Assembly: GCA_025408425.1 (NCBI GenBank) | Contig: JANXYX010000036.1 | Span: 186,001 to 250,000, forward strand | Length of the DNA stretch: 64,000 nucleotides | From: Granulicella sp. | Lineage (GTDB): Bacteria > Acidobacteriota > Terriglobia > Terriglobales > Acidobacteriaceae | Reading direction: 5' to 3' | Shown: positions 91-7,651 of the stretch, in pieces | Numbering within the stretch: position 1 is the stretch's first letter | How the letters are laid out: the number at the start of each line of letters is the position of its first letter | Program-made: the position numbers and the translations under genes | Notes under the pieces: generated by a model | Told to the model about the DNA's origin: nothing | The model's input: the letters and a program-made list of their open reading frames with translations, nothing else | The model's database searches: none

Positions 91-1407
91 ATGTTCGTCC
101 GACTCCTGATGGAATCCTTCCGCCGCCAGCGCCGCCGCAAGCTCCTCGCCGGCCTCGCCATCCTCCTCGGCACCACCGCAGTCACCGCAATGCTCGCCCT
201 CGCCACCACCATCGGCGACCGCATCCACAAAGAGCTGGCCGTCTACGGCGCCAACATCGTCATCTACCCCAAGGCCGACCAGCTAGACGTCAAAATCGGC
301 GGCGTAGACATCAAACCCGCCACCGGCAACGCTTACCTCCACGAGTCCGACCTCGACAAACTAAAAACCATCTTCTGGGCCAACAACATCACCGGTCTAA
401 GCCCCGAGTTGCCACTGCAGCTATCCATCGTCGCTCCACACACCAATGAGCATAAGGTTGAAGCAGTCGGCCTCTGGTTCAACCACCCTTTCGGCAACGG
501 CTCTACACTCACTGGCGCACCGCAGCTTCATCCATCGTGGAAACTCACCGGAGCGTGGCCTTCAAGCAACGATCAGGTCGTCGTCGGTAGAACCCTCGCA
601 GCCAAACTCGGGGTTACTTCAGGAGAAACGCTCGTCGTCCCCGCATCCCCACCCGCCGGAGACAGCCTACTGCACAAGGGCTACTCTTATAAGATCACTG
701 GCATCGCGGATACAGGCGGCTTACAGGACGATCAACTTATACTTCCCCTCGCTGCTGCCCAGACCCTCGCCAACCTTCCCGACGCCATCTCCCGCGTAGA
801 AGTCTCCGCCCGCACCAAACCCGAAGACGCCTTCGCCCGCGTAGACCCCGACACCCTCCCCGCCAAGCAGCGCGAGATCTGGTACTGCCGCCCTTACGCC
901 AACTCCATCGCCTACCAGATCCGCGAAGCCATCCCCGGGGCCGCAGCCGAGCAGGTCCGCCGCGTCGAGCAATCCGAAGGCACTATCCTCGAACGCATCT
1001 CCGGCCTCATGTGGCTCATCAGCGCTGCTGCCCTCCTCGCTGCCGGATTCGCCGTCTCCGCCGCCATGGCGACCGCCATCCTAGAGCGCCGCGCCGAAAT
1101 CGGCCTCATGCGCTCCCTCGGAGCCAGCAAATCCACCATCGCCATCCTCTTCTACGCCGAAACCGGCATCCTCGCCATCCTCTTCGGCTCCATCGGCTAC
1201 CTCCTCGGCTCCAGCCTCGCCGCACTCCTCGGCGCAAGAATCTTCTCCGGCGAAACGACCGCACCGTTCCTCTCCACAGCCTTCAATCCAGTCCTCCTTC
1301 CCATAGTCGTCGCCCTCGCGCTCATCGTAGCCATCGCCGGCAGCACCCCTTCCATCCGCGCCGCACTCCGCATGGACCCCTCCGCCATCCTCCGAGCCGA
1401 CGCATGA
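91..1407 (+). CDS. ABC transporter permease, FtsX/MacB type (first of two)
   Basis: 438-residue inner-membrane protein with the FtsX/MacB layout: an N-terminal basic segment and transmembrane helix (about residues 14-40), a large periplasmic domain (about 45-300), then three C-terminal helices. The sequence ERRAEIGLMRSLGAS between helices is the usual cytoplasmic coupling loop of this family. A YGANIVIYP motif just after helix 1 is shared, as FGANIVI, with the next gene. Permease pairs with this motif are known to me from p19/FTR1-type iron uptake loci (for example Campylobacter), so an iron role is possible; no iron gene is in the window. A GGAG about 11 bases upstream supports the ATG. The ATPase partner is probably the gene at 6887. 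Substrate is inferred only. Confidence 0.85.
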   Translation: MFVRLLMESFRRQRRRKLLAGLAILLGTTAVTAMLALATTIGDRIHKELAVYGANIVIYPKADQLDVKIGGVDIKPATGNAYLHESDLDKLKTIFWANNITGLSPELPLQLSIVAPHTNEHKVEAVGLWFNHPFGNGSTLTGAPQLHPSWKLTGAWPSSNDQVVVGRTLAAKLGVTSGETLVVPASPPAGDSLLHKGYSYKITGIADTGGLQDDQLILPLAAAQTLANLPDAISRVEVSARTKPEDAFARVDPDTLPAKQREIWYCRPYANSIAYQIREAIPGAAAEQVRRVEQSEGTILERISGLMWLISAAALLAAGFAVSAAMATAILERRAEIGLMRSLGASKSTIAILFYAETGILAILFGSIGYLLGSSLAALLGARIFSGETTAPFLSTAFNPVLLPIVVALALIVAIAGSTPSIRAALRMDPSAILRADA

Positions 1408-1502: not shown

Positions 1503-1552
1503 GGGTGCCCCATTCATGCGGCTTCATCGCATGAGTGGGCATTCGCGAAGCG
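1503..1552. repeat. hairpin repeat, copy B
   Basis: Second unit of the same family. Left arm CCCCAT at 1508-1513, perfect 7-bp stem TCATGCG/CGCATGA (1514-1520 with 1528-1534), loop GCTTCAT, right arm GTGGG (1535-1539). The stem sequence differs from copy A but still pairs, so the fold is kept while the sequence changes. Confidence 0.7.
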
Positions 1553-1585
1553 CCCCCTCGACGAATCGACGAATCAGGTGCCCGC

Positions 1586-2683
1586 ATGAAGCAACTCACC
1601 CTCCTCTCCATCCTCCGCCGCTCCCTCATCCACCGCCGCGCCCGCAGCCTCTCCGCCCTCGTCGCCATGACCGTCTCCGCCGCCGTCGCCACCGCCCTCC
1701 TCACCCTATACGCCGATCTCGACGCCAAGCTTCACCACGAGTTCCGCAGCTTCGGCGCCAACATCGTCATCACCGCTCTAGCCAATACCCCGCTCCCCTC
1801 AGACGCACTAGCCAAGGTCCGGCAAGCCGCAGGCCCCGACACCCTCGCCGCCCCCTTCGCCTACGCCGTAGCCACCACCGACCGCGGCACCCCCGTCGTC
1901 GTCGCCGGAACCGACTTCACCGCCGTCCGCCGCCTCAACGCCTGGTGGCAAGTCCAGCACTGGCCCTCCACCCCCGACGCCGCTCTCATCGGCCAACGCG
2001 CCGCCAACTTCATCGCCGACGAGCACGCCCTCAAACTCACCTTCAGCGGCTCCCCCATCACCCTCCAGTCCGCAGGACGCCTCAAAACCGGTGGCGATGA
2101 AGACAGCCGCATCTACATCCCTCTCGCCGCCTTCGAAGCCTGGACCCACACCGCTCCCAGCATCATCGAACTCCAGATCCCCGGCGGAGCCCCCCAGGTC
2201 GAAGCCGCCATCCAGCGCCTCCACCAGCAACTCCCCCAGCTACAAATCCAGCCCGTCCGCCAACTCGTCGAAGGCGAGTCCCGCATCGTCGACCGCACCC
2301 ACGCCCTCATGTACGGAGCCGTCCTCCTCATCGCCCTCACCGTAGCCGTCTCCGTCCTCGCCACCCTCTCCGCCAGCGTCCTCGAACGCCGCCGCGACTT
2401 CGCCCTCATGAAGGCCCTCGGCGGCTCCCAGCCCCAGCTTATGAGCATGTTCCTCCTCGAAGCCCTCACCCTCGCCCTCGCAGGAGTCATCGTCGGCTAC
2501 GGCATCGGCTCCGCACTCGCATGGGTCATCAGCGAGTGGAACTTCCACACCGCCACCCTGCCCCGCCTGTCAGTCCTGCCCCTGGTCCTCCTGCTCAACG
2601 TCGCCATCGCCGCCATCGCCGCCCTGCTCCCCGTCCGCGTCCTCCGCAACCTCCAACCCGCCGCCCTCCTAAAAGGCGAGTAA
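1586..2683 (+). CDS. ABC transporter permease, FtsX/MacB type (second)
   Basis: 365-residue paralogue of the permease at 91-1407 with the same plan: N-terminal helix (about residues 20-42), FGANIVI motif, periplasmic domain, and three C-terminal helices with the coupling loop LERRRDFALMKALGGS. I chose the ATG at 1586 (MKQLTLLSILRR). The frame is open back to 1535, but that stretch lies in the repeat units. It is separated from the first permease by about 180 bp of repeat DNA, so the two genes probably form one transcription unit interrupted by the repeats. It converges on nrdB with only 14 bp between stop codons and no terminator hairpin visible there. Confidence 0.85.
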   Translation: MKQLTLLSILRRSLIHRRARSLSALVAMTVSAAVATALLTLYADLDAKLHHEFRSFGANIVITALANTPLPSDALAKVRQAAGPDTLAAPFAYAVATTDRGTPVVVAGTDFTAVRRLNAWWQVQHWPSTPDAALIGQRAANFIADEHALKLTFSGSPITLQSAGRLKTGGDEDSRIYIPLAAFEAWTHTAPSIIELQIPGGAPQVEAAIQRLHQQLPQLQIQPVRQLVEGESRIVDRTHALMYGAVLLIALTVAVSVLATLSASVLERRRDFALMKALGGSQPQLMSMFLLEALTLALAGVIVGYGIGSALAWVISEWNFHTATLPRLSVLPLVLLLNVAIAAIAALLPVRVLRNLQPAALLKGE

Positions 2684-2697
2684 CCCCCAGTTTGTTG

Positions 2698-3762
2698 TTA
2701 GAAATCTTCTCCGAATTCGACCTCGCCCTGGACTGCGGACTGATAAGCCGAAACGCGCCGCTCGAAGAAGTTGGTGAGTTCCTGCACGTCCTGAAGGTCC
2801 ATGAAAGAGAAGGGATTCTTCGCATGGAAAGCTGGGGGGATCCCCAGGCGCTGGAGGCGAGAGTCGGCAACGTAGCCAAGGTATTGGCGCATATCGCGCA
2901 GTGATAGACCTGCCACGCCTCCAGACAGCAAGTCTTCCGCGAACTGCGCTTCTGCATCTACGGCTTCATGGAGCATCACGACAATCTGTTGCTCTAAGTC
3001 GGCGTCCCAAAGATCCGGCTCCTGGGCACGAACAACATTGACGACCTCGAAGGCGAATTCGAGATGACAGCTTTCATCTCGAAAGACCCAGTTTGTTCCG
3101 GCAGCGAGGCCGTGCAGCAGGCCCTTTGACCGGAAAAAATATACATAGGCGAATGCGGCGAAGAAGAAGAGTCCTTCAATGCATGCCGCGAAGCAAATGA
3201 GATTCAGCAAGAACTGGCGACGATGAGCGCGTGTTTCGAGAGCGTCGATCTCCTGAATGGAGTCCATCCACTTCATACAGAAGTCAGCCTTCTTGGAGAT
3301 GGATGGGATATTCTCAACGGCGGCGAAGGCAGCTGCACGTTCGTCCGGATCAGGGACATAGTTGTCTAGCAGCGTGAGATAGAACTGCACGTGAACAGCC
3401 TCTTCAAAGAGCTGGCGGGATAGATAGAGTCGTGCCTCAGGCGAGTTGATGTGCTTATAAAGGTTAAGCACCAGGTTGTTAGAGACGATACTGTCGCCGG
3501 TTGCAAAGAAGGCGACGAGGCGCTGAATGACGTGAACCTCTGCCGGTGTGATGCGCTGCTTCAGATCGGCCAGATCCGTTTGAAAGTCAACTTCTTCAAC
3601 CGTCCAGGTGTTCTTGATGCCGTCTCGGAACATATCGTAGAAGACCGGAAAGCGCATCGGGCGCAGCGTAAGGCAGAGGCCCGGATCGAGGATGTGGGTT
3701 GGGACGGCGACGGAGTTGTGGGTGGTGTGAGACGGCGCACCCGTGAATTCGGCACTTGGCAT
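2698..3762 (-). CDS. nrdB: class Ia ribonucleotide reductase, small subunit
   Basis: 354-residue R2 subunit of aerobic ribonucleotide reductase, which houses the di-iron tyrosyl radical cofactor for the NrdA partner. All six metal ligands can be placed by spacing against E. coli R2: Asp90, Glu121 and His124 (EAVH), Glu196 (IEGLFF), Glu230 and His233 (DESCH). The radical tyrosine is Tyr128, four residues after His124 as in the E. coli Tyr122 site, so this is a Tyr-radical enzyme rather than a class Ic one. The C-terminal acidic tail (EVEFGEDF) fits the peptide that docks into R1. It lies 66 bp downstream of nrdA and is probably cotranscribed from the nrdA promoter. Confidence 0.97.
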   Translation of the reverse strand: MPSAEFTGAPSHTTHNSVAVPTHILDPGLCLTLRPMRFPVFYDMFRDGIKNTWTVEEVDFQTDLADLKQRITPAEVHVIQRLVAFFATGDSIVSNNLVLNLYKHINSPEARLYLSRQLFEEAVHVQFYLTLLDNYVPDPDERAAAFAAVENIPSISKKADFCMKWMDSIQEIDALETRAHRRQFLLNLICFAACIEGLFFFAAFAYVYFFRSKGLLHGLAAGTNWVFRDESCHLEFAFEVVNVVRAQEPDLWDADLEQQIVVMLHEAVDAEAQFAEDLLSGGVAGLSLRDMRQYLGYVADSRLQRLGIPPAFHAKNPFSFMDLQDVQELTNFFERRVSAYQSAVQGEVEFGEDF

Positions 3763-3828: not shown

Positions 3829-6267
3829 CTATTGGCAGGCTTCGCAGGACTCAGGATTCTCAAGCGAACAGGAAACTGCCGCAACAGACGTCAGGGCGTT
3901 GGAAGCCGCTGCGCCAGCGTGCGCAGAGCTGTTTTGCACCGTGGTCTTGGCGATCTTGGTTGCTGGACGCGAGCGCAGGTAGTACGTGGTCTTGAGGCCC
4001 TTCTTCCACGCATACATATACATCGAGGAGAGCTTGCCAATGTTCGGCGACTCGGCAAAGAGATTGAGCGATTGCGACTGGTCGATATAGGCGTTGCGTG
4101 CGGCCGCCATGTCGATCAGTGCACGCATGGGAATCTCCCAAACGGTGCGATAGAGCTGCTTGAGGTCATCCGGAAGCTCAGCGATGTTTTGAACTGATCC
4201 TTCAGAGAGCTTGAGCCGCATCCGCATCTCTTCCGTCCAGAGGCCGCGCACCTTGAGTTCATCGATGAGATAGCGATTGACCTGGAGAAACTCTCCGGAG
4301 AGTGTCTCGCGCTTGAACAGATTGGAGATCTGCGGCTCAATGCACTCATAGCACCCAACGATCGACGCGATGGTCGCAGTCGGCGCAATTGCGATGACCA
4401 GCGAATTGCGTACACCAGTCTTTGCAATTCGTTCGCGCAGTGCTTCCCAACGAGCGTTGTCTGCGGGGGTTACGTTCCAGAGATCGAACTGAAATTGACC
4501 AGCCGCGAGACGTGTTTCGGTAAATGTCGGGTGGGGACCATATTTTTCCGCGAGTGCCGCCGAAGCCGTCAGCGCGTGGAGGTAGATTTCTTCCTGAATC
4601 CTTGTCGAGAGTGCCTGCGCTTCAGCGGAGTCGAATGGCAATTGCAGCTGGAAGAACACGTCCTGAAGACCCATAATGCCGAGGCCGATAGGCCGCCACT
4701 GCGCGTTCGAACTCGCGGCCTGCGCAATGGGATAGTAGTTGATGTCGATGACTCGATCGAGCATTGGGACGGCAGTGCGCACGGTTGCTCCGAGTTTGTC
4801 GAAGTCGAAGCTGGCGACGCCGTCGGTGTCGACGATGACGTGCCGTGCGAGGTTGATGGAGCCTAGATTGCACACTGCAGTCTGGTCATGCGAAGTAACT
4901 TCAGTGATCTCCGTGCATAGGTTGGAGAGATGGACCACGTTGCCGGGTTTGCCAGTCTGATTGCACTTGAGGTTAGTCGCGTCTTTGAATGTCATCCAGC
5001 CATTTCCAGTTTCGGCAAGCGATCGCATCATGCGGGCGTAAAGATCGCGGGCCTTGATCTGGCGGTGGTAGAGTTTCTCAGCCTCGGCCTGCTCGTAGGC
5101 TTGGGTGAAGGCGTCTCCGTACAGATCGGGAAGCTGCGGAACGTCCTTGGGGTCGAAGAGCGACCATTGACCGTCCGCTTCTACGCGCTGCATGAAGATG
5201 TCGGGAATCCAGTTTGCGAGGTTGAGATTGTAGGTGCGGCGTGCGCCGTCGCCAGTGTTCTCGCGGAGTTCGAGGAAGGATTCGATATCCGCGTGCCAGG
5301 GTTCGAGGTAGACGCAGCATGCTCCCTTGCGCTTTCCGCCCTGGTTGACTGCCGCAACGGAACTATCGAGCGTGCGCAGCCATGGCACGATGCCATTGGA
5401 GAGGCCGTTCGTAGCGCGGATCAGAGAACCTTCGGAACGAACACGATGGAATGCGAGGCCGATGCCGCCGGAGAACTTCGAAAGCATAGCGACATTCTTG
5501 TAGGTGTCGTAGATGCTTTCGAGCGAATCACTCGGTGAATCGTGGAGATAGCAGGACGACATCTGGGCATGCTTCGTTCCGGAGTTGAACAACGTTGGCG
5601 ACGACGGCATGTAGTCGAGCGAGGCAATCAGCCGATAGAACTCGATGGCTTCGTGCGGTGTCCCTGCAAGTCCGCACGCAACGCGGAGAAAGAAGTGTTG
5701 TGGGGTCTCAATGATGCCGCGCGAGATGGGGTCACGTAGAAGATAGCGGTCGTAGACCGTGCGCAGGCCAAAGTACTCAAAGCGATCGGAGAACGTGTCG
5801 TCGATCGCATGATTCAGCTTGCGGGCATGCGTCTGGACGAACTCTGCAGTCGCCTTGCTAACGACACCTTCCTGATAACCGTAAGCGATAGCCTGCGAGA
5901 AGGAGTGCAAGTTGAGCGCGGAGACTTCCTTCACAATTGTCGCGAGCAGCAGCCTCGCAGCGAGACGGGAGTATTGCGGCTCCTCCGCGATCAGGGATGC
6001 GGCAGTGTCGATGGAGATGGTATCGAGTTCTCGGGTTGTGGCTCCGTCATAGAGCCCTCCGATCGTCTTGGACGCGACCCGGATCGCATCAACGTGGGTA
6101 AGACCAAAAGAAGATCTCTGGACGGCCCGGACAATCTTGTTGACGTCCACCGGTTCAAGCGCTCCGTTACGCTTGCGGACGTGCATAACGGGTGTCTCCT
6201 CACGCGCAGGGAAGCCGGGCGCGAGGTCGGAAAGGCTGGTCTGGATGTGATCTGCGGTCGTGGCCAT
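3829..6267 (-). CDS. nrdA: class Ia ribonucleotide reductase, large subunit
   Basis: 812-residue catalytic R1 subunit that reduces ribonucleoside diphosphates to deoxy forms. Order of domains: ATP-cone (about residues 28-120, allosteric dATP/ATP site), then the ten-stranded barrel. Active-site residues visible: Cys239 (SSCY) and Cys466 (AVCNLGS) as the redox pair, Asn449-Cys451-Glu453 in NLCTE as the thiyl radical site, and the tyrosine pair in TTYYLRS for radical transfer. The tail ends CEACQ, the Cys pair (808, 811) that re-reduces the active site. The Shine-Dalgarno AAGGAGA sits 7-8 bases before the ATG. Upstream lie a cobalamin riboswitch and two NrdR-like boxes, so expression should fall when B12 is plentiful. 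Confidence 0.97.
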   Translation of the reverse strand: MATTADHIQTSLSDLAPGFPAREETPVMHVRKRNGALEPVDVNKIVRAVQRSSFGLTHVDAIRVASKTIGGLYDGATTRELDTISIDTAASLIAEEPQYSRLAARLLLATIVKEVSALNLHSFSQAIAYGYQEGVVSKATAEFVQTHARKLNHAIDDTFSDRFEYFGLRTVYDRYLLRDPISRGIIETPQHFFLRVACGLAGTPHEAIEFYRLIASLDYMPSSPTLFNSGTKHAQMSSCYLHDSPSDSLESIYDTYKNVAMLSKFSGGIGLAFHRVRSEGSLIRATNGLSNGIVPWLRTLDSSVAAVNQGGKRKGACCVYLEPWHADIESFLELRENTGDGARRTYNLNLANWIPDIFMQRVEADGQWSLFDPKDVPQLPDLYGDAFTQAYEQAEAEKLYHRQIKARDLYARMMRSLAETGNGWMTFKDATNLKCNQTGKPGNVVHLSNLCTEITEVTSHDQTAVCNLGSINLARHVIVDTDGVASFDFDKLGATVRTAVPMLDRVIDINYYPIAQAASSNAQWRPIGLGIMGLQDVFFQLQLPFDSAEAQALSTRIQEEIYLHALTASAALAEKYGPHPTFTETRLAAGQFQFDLWNVTPADNARWEALRERIAKTGVRNSLVIAIAPTATIASIVGCYECIEPQISNLFKRETLSGEFLQVNRYLIDELKVRGLWTEEMRMRLKLSEGSVQNIAELPDDLKQLYRTVWEIPMRALIDMAAARNAYIDQSQSLNLFAESPNIGKLSSMYMYAWKKGLKTTYYLRSRPATKIAKTTVQNSSAHAGAAASNALTSVAAVSCSLENPESCEACQ

Positions 6268-6352
6268 GGATGATTCTCCTTGGCCTCAGAAGTGTGCGAA
6301 GAAACAGCGGATGCTTCCCTTTGAGTCGGGACCGGACAAGCCACTGCCACCT

Positions 6353-6535
6353 CGCCTCCCCTCGGAGGCGCGTGCAAATGTATTCATGGCAGGTCTTCGG
6401 ACTATGCAGGCTCAACCCTACTCGCCGGACTTCCCGGAGCCTGTGGCTCCAGTGTCATCTTGGGCTTTCGTACCTGCTTACCGCTGCGGGGCAGCTCCGG
6501 ATTCTCACCGGATTCCCTTTTCACTCCTTGCACAA
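6353..6535 (-). promoter_or_regulatory. cobalamin riboswitch in the nrdA leader
   Basis: On the - strand the leader holds the diagnostic cobalamin aptamer core, read as GGGAATCCGGTGAGAATCC followed by GGAGCTGCCCCGCAGCGGTA (complement of 6480-6518), and the 3' B12 box CCGAAGACCTGCCA (complement of 6387-6400). The closing helix P1 can be drawn between GTGCAA (6528-6533) and TTGCAC (6372-6377). Immediately 3' is a 7-bp hairpin CGCCTCC/GGAGGCG (6353-6370) with no U-tract, so control is more likely at translation than by termination. The nrdA start is about 85 nt further on. B12 riboswitch control of nrdAB is established in Streptomyces coelicolor. Confidence 0.93.
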
Positions 6536-6559
6536 GGCTCAGAGCACCACGAACGAAGA

Positions 6560-6606
6560 CTACCCTATCTTGTACGACATGGAAGAGCAAGCCCAATATC
6601 TTGACA
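6560..6606 (-). promoter_or_regulatory. nrdA promoter with two NrdR-like boxes
   Basis: A sigma70-like promoter reads on the - strand as TTGCTC (complement of 6585-6590), 17 bp, TAGGGT (complement of 6562-6567), with the riboswitch starting just downstream. Two 16-bp sites, 6560-6575 and 6591-6606, share TATCTTG and resemble the NrdR box (CAATATCTTG in the better copy). They are exactly 31 bp apart, three helical turns, which is the usual NrdR spacing. The sites cover the -10 and lie just upstream of the -35, as expected for a repressor. Box 1 is degenerate on its left half. Confidence 0.7.
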
Positions 6607-6886: not shown

Positions 6887-7651
6887 TTGAACAAGACCGA
6901 ATCAGGCAGCTACGACTTCGCGGAACAGACCCGCCCCGAGTGCTCCGTCATCGCCCTCTCTCACGTCACCCGCGAGTACGTCGGCCACGGCAGCGTAGTC
7001 CGCGCACTCGACGACGCCACCTTCTCCATCGTCGCCGGAGAGTGGGTCGCCATCACCGGCCCCTCAGGCTCCGGAAAATCCACCCTCGTCAACATGCTCG
7101 GCTGCCTCGACCGCCCCACCTCAGGCCAACTGAAAATCGACGGCCACGACGTCGCCTCCATGTCCCCCACCGAGCTCGACCGCTTCCGCGCCGACAAGAT
7201 CGGCTTCATCTTCCAGCAGTTCCACCTCATCCCCTACCTCTCCGCCCTCGAAAACGTCATGCTCGCCCAATACTTCCACTCCATGACCGACGAGAAAGAA
7301 GCCCGCGCCTCCCTCGAACGCGTCGGCCTCGGCGCACGCGCCGAACATCTCCCTAGCGAGCTCTCCGGCGGCGAGCAGCAGCGCGTCTGCATCGCCCGCG
7401 CCCTCATCAACAACCCACCCATCCTCCTCGCAGACGAGCCCACCGGAAACCTCGACGCCGCCAACCAGAAGATCGTCGCCAACCTTCTCGCCGATCTCCA
7501 CCGCAACGGTCACACCATCGTCATGGTCACCCACGACCCAGAGATGGCCGCGCTCGCCCAGCGCCGCATCGCCCTCAGCCACGGCAAGGTCTTCTGCCAC
7601 CCCGTCGGCGGTCCGGTCGTCACCCTGCGCCGCTCAACAGACCGCAATTAA
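6887..7651 (+). CDS. ABC transporter ATP-binding protein (MacB/LolD type)
   Basis: 254-residue cytoplasmic ATPase that would power the FtsX-type permeases encoded at 91-2683. Motifs in order: Walker A GPSGSGKS (about residue 58), Q-loop in [10 protein letters not shown], signature LSGGEQQR, Walker [13 protein letters not shown] and H-loop MVTHD. The TGNLD extension after Walker B is typical of the LolD/MacB/FtsE family. The only suitable start is TTG at 6887, preceded by GGGGGAAG; the frame has no ATG before the nucleotide-binding domain. The gene stands alone, with the divergent nrdAB operon and a terminator-like hairpin between it and the permeases. Confidence 0.88.

Follow-up and report, generated by a model that had tools for sequence, protein, structure and literature searches.

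A cobalamin riboswitch and a pair of NrdR-like boxes precede the class Ia nrdAB operon of a Granulicella genome and suggest two-layer control

The nrdABS operon of Streptomyces coelicolor reportedly carries a B12 riboswitch (Borovok 2006). Streptomyces also has NrdJ and NrdR. According to the accessible part of PMC3848588, nrdAB of Propionibacterium (Cutibacterium) acnes has an nrd-box and a cobalamin riboswitch in its 5' UTR, with premature termination. Bacillus methanolicus has AdoCbl riboswitches before nrdAB and metE (PMC4342826, accessible part). For NrdR itself, the portion available of PMC12051234 gives efficient repression for spacers of 15-17 bp or 26 +/- 1 bp, and explains this by the need for the box centres to sit an integral number of helical turns apart. 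A literature search, with most subscription journals outside its reach, returned no precedent for an acidobacterial nrdAB riboswitch and, within the same scope, no paper on ribonucleotide reductase in Terriglobus. The accessible sections of PMC2667541 and PMC8620254 contain no acidobacterial nrdAB riboswitch either.

We analyzed a window of 64,000 nt from Granulicella sp. (GCA_025408425.1, contig JANXYX010000036.1, positions 186,001-250,000 of the forward strand). The nrdA gene (3829-6267, minus strand) encodes a class I large subunit of 812 residues, which scored 706.7 bits against TIGR02506 (cut-off 341.05). A family profile search revealed the domains PF03477, PF00317 and PF02867, with a single ATP cone. 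The class I small subunit of 354 residues is encoded by nrdB (2698-3762, minus strand; PF00268, 258.7 bits). Its best PDB chain alignments were those with 2ani and 1syy, which we take to be Chlamydia R2 chains, 1syy being the Chlamydia class Ic protein. At the radical position, the Tyr of NrdB aligned with Phe in 1syy and with Tyr in 2ani, and the Asp of NrdB aligned with the Glu of both chains. Tyr and Asp at these sites presumably indicate a tyrosyl-radical class Ia enzyme and not class Ic, which fits the class Ia label that the original prediction had given to nrdAB. The next long ORF after nrdB (1535-2683) is on the other strand, and the operon therefore comprises nrdAB only. In the whole genome, there are two Ribonuc_red_lgC matches in all, NrdA of the window and NrdJ. 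The oppositely oriented nrdAB genes are flanked by a LolCE/FtsX-like permease gene (91-1407, plus strand) and an ABC ATPase gene (6887-7651, plus strand), both assignments being weak or under the NCBIfam cut-offs; ORF 1535-2683 (plus strand) was judged by eye to be a second permease-like gene.

A complete cobalamin aptamer had been predicted in the minus-strand leader of nrdAB, and the covariance search bore this out. RF00174 matched at 6566-6371 with 115.9 bits (cmscan, cut-off 31.5, E = 2.3e-28). The match lies above the gathering score and covers model positions 1-189 of 189, i.e., the full length, and it was the sole gathering-level Rfam match in the whole window. By its family assignment, the nrdAB leader RNA is a switch of the vitamin B12-sensing kind. 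The distance from the aptamer end to the nrdA start is 103 nt. The boundary first proposed for the element, 6353, is where the hairpin downstream of the aptamer (6370-6353) ends.

The conservation of the leader was assessed in 61 genomes, the Granulicella genome and 60 relatives. A close class I NrdA was found in 18 of these (14 at 76-100% identity and 4 at ~45%), and RF00174 was located directly upstream of nrdA in all 18. A second, distant reductase match was present in 17 of the 18, the exception being G007 (85% complete), and the start of NrdJ was matched in 15 of those 17, in fetched DNA for the relatives or at the NrdJ locus of the Granulicella genome itself. Beyond the 18, three genomes (G039, G047 and G058) yielded large-subunit matches at E values of 1e-45 to 1e-48. 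Among the matches listed, the nearest named relatives were Acidobacteriaceae, including Terriglobus roseus (NrdA 79%). Eight nrdA neighbourhoods had nrdA and nrdB, and nothing else, in common with the first 30 kb of the window, save for two weak matches in one. The four genomes with ~45% identical NrdA (L052-L055) are of the same genus, yet their nrdA has a leader of the same kind, with the hairpin and the box pair. In a quick leader tree, the leaders of this group were nested inside those of the window group. The IQ-TREE leader tree was poorly supported, and by the AU test a single clade of window-type leaders was not rejected (p = 0.092). In this group, the leader may have stayed the same while the enzyme was swapped. 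In two relatives (G012 and G019), metE with its own cobalamin riboswitch follows nrdAB (L176:10558-13134 and L173:11865-14420), and in G010 and G029 a second riboswitch occurs at a comparable place.

The original prediction also placed two NrdR-like sites, three helical turns apart, over the promoter. Both a consensus scan and leader-derived matrices recovered them. Box 1 (TGTCAAGATATTGGGC, 6591-6606, minus strand) belongs to the best pair of the leader and lies directly 5' of the presumed -35 element. Box 2 (GTACAAGATAGGGTAG, 6560-6575, minus strand) begins 31 bp downstream and overlaps the presumed -10 element. This start-to-start distance corresponds to a 15 bp spacer and three helical turns. 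Against the NrdR box consensus of the literature, the pair scored 33 of 48, the top pair value of the window for spacings of 30-33, 41 and 42; one other pair, at spacing 30, reached the same score. Separate matrices built from the 17 other leaders ranked the pair first of 127,908 positions. A single symmetric box matrix ranked it second, with a score equal to the top one; such a model gives a site the same value on either strand, so a tie of this kind is expected. Taken singly, the boxes ranked 90 and 5 with the separate matrices, and 2 and 45 with the symmetric one. The 17 training sites come from homologous leaders, so these ranks express conservation and not binding.

When spacings of 30-32 were scanned, the best pair fell at the same place within 3 bases in 18 of 18 nrdA leaders. 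Counted from the aptamer start, the boxes lie at -40 to -38 and -10 to -7, with a spacing of 30-31. Five leaders have one weak box in the fixed register (box 1 in L039, L043 and L054; box 2 in L053 and L055). Alignment of the 18 leaders suggested a promoter at 6562-6590 (minus strand), composed of the -35 element TTGCTC (6590-6585), a 17 bp spacer and the -10 element TAGGGT (6567-6562). The -35 element is between the boxes and the -10 element is inside box 2; many relatives have TTGACN and TATAGT. The consensus promoter scan found nothing at this site of the window, where both elements are degenerate and the -10 is poor, and the presumed promoter therefore rests on the alignment with the relatives.

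The overlap of the boxes with the promoter could mean that the pair is not an NrdR operator and has been conserved merely along with the promoter elements of homologous leaders; among 18 homologous leaders, conservation alone is no proof of a binding protein. We regard this explanation as distinctly unlikely. Box 1 is upstream of the -35 element, and its core is kept although the DNA upstream of the box pair does not align across the 18 leaders. The riboswitch-less leaders L094 and L093 keep the pair at 31 bp. The 15 bp spacer is within the range reported for efficient NrdR repression in the part of PMC12051234 available. The same box also recurs at another nrd promoter, where the original prediction had suggested looking. 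Upstream of nrdJ, a palindromic NrdR-like box, ACACAACATGTTGTGC and variants, was found in all 21 genomes examined (20 chosen relatives and the Granulicella genome), being weak in one, though its partner box is weak. The symmetric matrix trained on the nrdA leaders scored this palindrome highest in each of the 21 nrdJ upstream regions; in G011 its lead over the runner-up was minimal, and in G012 the second-best position scored nearly as high. Since two different promoters carry the same box, these data support the control of nrdA and nrdJ by one shared regulator, in a genome that has NrdR. We accordingly keep to the reading of the pair as a putative NrdR operator.

The genome was expected to encode NrdJ, NrdR and either the synthesis or the uptake of B12. 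NrdJ is encoded at L004 (520-3777, minus strand), with 548.6 bits against TIGR02504 (cut-off 399.95) and 1448.1 bits against PRK06556 (cut-off 859). NrdR is encoded as well (TIGR00244, 191.3 bits, cut-off 124.65), and nrdR and nrdJ are on different contigs. With regard to B12, the evidence pointed to uptake as the likelier of the two options. CbiC, PduO and CobT had no matches in the genome, in a search that covered these three synthesis marker families. BtuR was present (214.8 bits, genome profile search), and the gene behind the only other cobalamin riboswitch of the genome has a TonB-receptor plug domain. On these grounds, the most likely source of the cofactor is imported B12 that is adenosylated in the cell. 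One relative (G031) has CbiC and tetrapyrrole methylases behind a cobalamin riboswitch.

To examine the relation between the riboswitch and NrdJ, the 18 leaders were turned into a covariance model, which was used to search 80 named nrdA loci (the best 80 of the matches listed). The leader model matched upstream of nrdA in 35 of these best 80, and Rfam gave no cobalamin riboswitch in the other 45. NrdJ was found in 71 of the 80 genomes, in 67 above the curated cut-off and in 4 as fragments. Among these best 80 of the matches listed, a riboswitch was present in 34 of 71 genomes with NrdJ and in 1 of 9 without it (Fisher one-sided p = 0.036; p = 0.024 without 5 loci of short upstream DNA). In this count, the four fragments were taken as NrdJ, and L095, in which Rfam recognized AdoCbl-II, was taken as riboswitch-bearing. 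No riboswitch was found at the nrdA examined in 37 of the 71 NrdJ-bearing genomes, 5 of the 37 having short upstream DNA, and L139 has the riboswitch while NrdJ was not found there. Phylogenetically independent pairs were then drawn on the NrdA tree, a quick tree, from 92 rows, after removal of the duplicate L041 and of 5 loci with short upstream DNA. Of the 6 pairs obtained, on average 1.0 supported the association, 0.6 opposed it and 4.4 carried no information; exchanging the two traits gave 4 pairs, with means of 1.1 supporting, 0.3 opposing and 2.6 uninformative. A general riboswitch-NrdJ correlation is not claimed here; it was not significant once phylogeny was allowed for.

Terriglobus offers the clearest single case. 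NrdJ had no match in Terriglobus roseus (complete genome) or in an uncultured Terriglobus MAG, and neither the leader model nor Rfam detected a riboswitch at their fetched nrdA. Both keep the NrdR-like pair at 31 bp (9.1+6.5 and 15.8+9.7 bits), and other cobalamin riboswitches are still present in both genomes. In the quick NrdA tree, the two were nested with support inside the riboswitch-bearing clade. This natural contrast bears on why such riboswitches persist. Since the Granulicella genome showed no marker of de novo B12 synthesis, the models of CbiC, PduO and CobT matching nothing, its riboswitch might be an inherited passenger of little function. This is very improbable given the full-length aptamer, the retention of BtuR and NrdJ, and the presence of the riboswitch at every close class I nrdA in the 61 genomes; in Terriglobus, where NrdJ was not found, the nrdA riboswitch is missing as well. 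A functional riboswitch thus remains our reading for Granulicella.

Two observations concern individual loci. In Terriglobus roseus (L094, NC_018014.1), two equal-score NrdA matches and two equal-score cobalamin riboswitches are each ~460.5 kb apart, which may reflect a very large duplication in the chromosome or in the assembly. In L095, an Acidobacteriaceae MAG with NrdJ, AdoCbl-II (RF01689, 4792-4868, 60.5 bits, cut-off 36.5) precedes nrdA and follows the NrdR-like pair, where the relatives have RF00174; it is possibly a shortened descendant of RF00174.

The region between the aptamer and nrdA was inspected for an expression platform. The aptamer is followed by the hairpin CGCCUCC-GAGG-GGAGGCG (6353-6370, minus strand), which we take to be P13. 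It occurs in 18 of 18 nrdA leaders, and the copy in the window reaches -14.8 kcal/mol on its own. Its proposed loop-loop partner is the CCCC loop (6488-6491, minus strand) of the CUG-CCCC-GCAG hairpin, presumably L5. We examined 53 loci for this contact, 17 of which were unmatched by the pattern; L095, whose loop also has U, was left unscored. In the 36 loci matched at both sites, bases 6491 and 6359 were C-G in 31, U-A in 4 and a mismatch in 1. The U-A loci (L040, L041, L043 and L099) form one clade in the quick NrdA tree, and L041 and L099 encode an identical NrdA, so the U-A variants probably reflect a single evolutionary event. In these leaders, the G-to-A change removes the innermost pair of the hairpin itself, and it is therefore better explained by the loop-loop contact.

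A long second helix can form at 6298-6353 (minus strand), with a 5' strand able to reach into the 3' arm of the hairpin before it. A pairing of this kind exists in all 18 leaders, formed by different sequences. The z values against shuffles ranged from +0.08 to -3.94 over the leaders and were mostly modest (-1.37 for the window), the helix not going beyond the shuffles in many leaders. A competition in which the second helix invades the first hairpin is suggested by this fold. Closer to the gene, the minimum-energy fold of a 121-nt stretch contains a hairpin GGCCA..UGGCC (6262-6285, minus strand; z = -1.87, with 7 of 200 shuffles folding as well), which encloses the Shine-Dalgarno sequence AAGGAG (6281-6276) and the nrdA start codon (6267-6265). 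By eye, CUUC or CUCC 5' of the Shine-Dalgarno sequence (6288-6292 in the window, and equivalents) could pair with it in L038, L039 and L052-L055; in L039, CUCC is matched by GGGAG, which may be a compensating change.

No terminator, i.e., a stem with a U-run, was found on the minus strand between the aptamer and nrdA. Together with the Shine-Dalgarno sequence and AUG inside a hairpin and the conserved hairpin after the aptamer, this favours translational repression, which we hold with moderate confidence on the basis of the predicted folds. The same dual control with a riboswitch acting by transcription attenuation, either Rho-dependent or through a terminator further in, appears rather unlikely. 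The title of Borovok 2006 does speak of transcription, strong hairpins are present in the platform, and the accessible part of PMC3848588 describes termination ahead of nrdAB in Propionibacterium acnes. Against this stand the interval from the aptamer to nrdA, which lacks a stem with a U-run on the minus strand, and the gene-proximal hairpin, which encloses both the Shine-Dalgarno sequence and the start codon.

With these results, we propose a mechanism with translational repression as its second layer. It is highly probable that NrdR and a B12 riboswitch both lower nrdAB. The whole scheme, in which the class Ia reductase is switched off at two layers and the second acts on translation, is the more demanding claim, and we consider it reasonably probable. 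At the DNA level, NrdR would bind the two conserved boxes, three turns apart over the promoter, when nucleotides signal enough dNTP, and the promoter-bound NrdR would block nrdAB transcription. At the RNA level, transcripts would begin just after box 2 and fold the aptamer. The bound B12 cofactor, most likely adenosylcobalamin, would lock the loop-loop contact with the next hairpin, in which one base pair co-varies. The locked contact would shift the following helices and hide the nrdA ribosome-binding site. The dNTPs would then come from the B12-dependent NrdJ, using imported B12 adenosylated by BtuR, all three proteins (NrdR, NrdJ and BtuR) being encoded in the genome. In this soil acidobacterium, the oxygen-dependent nrdAB is thus probably turned down when B12 lets NrdJ take over. 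As the organism seems to import B12, its supply of DNA precursors would depend on B12 that neighbours produce.

A broader view, which we offer tentatively and with more doubt than confidence, is that the Acidobacteriaceae nrdAB leader is a portable 'B12-off, dNTP-off' module, selected for redundancy with NrdJ, the layers of which evolution can separate. The leader fronts two class I enzymes that are only ~45% identical; in Terriglobus, where NrdJ appears to have been lost, the aptamer is gone and the NrdR-like pair is kept; and in L095, a relative with NrdJ, the short AdoCbl-II class occupies the aptamer position of the nrdA leader. If true, such loci would constitute a natural experiment on what each layer contributes.

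The locus had been said to mirror Streptomyces nrdABS. This holds for the cobalamin riboswitch before class Ia nrdAB and for NrdJ and NrdR in the same genome. It does not extend to the gene order or the apparent mode of action: in this other phylum, no nrdS follows nrdB, control appears translational, and B12 is probably imported. Judging from the accessible part of PMC3848588, Propionibacterium acnes shares the NrdR-like site over the promoter, the cobalamin riboswitch, and nrd-boxes also at nrdJ. It differs by a single nrdAB box with termination, as opposed to a pair 31 bp apart and no terminator found here, and by an nrdR-nrdJ operon, where the two genes are on different contigs in Granulicella. 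Bacillus methanolicus likewise has riboswitches on B12-independent isozymes, comparable with metE after nrdAB in G012 and G019, but it belongs to another phylum, and the accessible part of PMC4342826 mentions no NrdR sites. The putative acidobacterial operator shares with the NrdR operators in the available portion of PMC12051234 the architecture of two boxes with a 15 bp spacer, three turns apart and overlapping the promoter. The arrangement as such is already known, being of the Streptomyces/Propionibacterium type. Here it occurs in a new lineage, the Acidobacteriaceae, together with a box pair and a probable translational platform. This would extend the B12-controlled choice between oxygen-dependent and B12-dependent reductases to this family.
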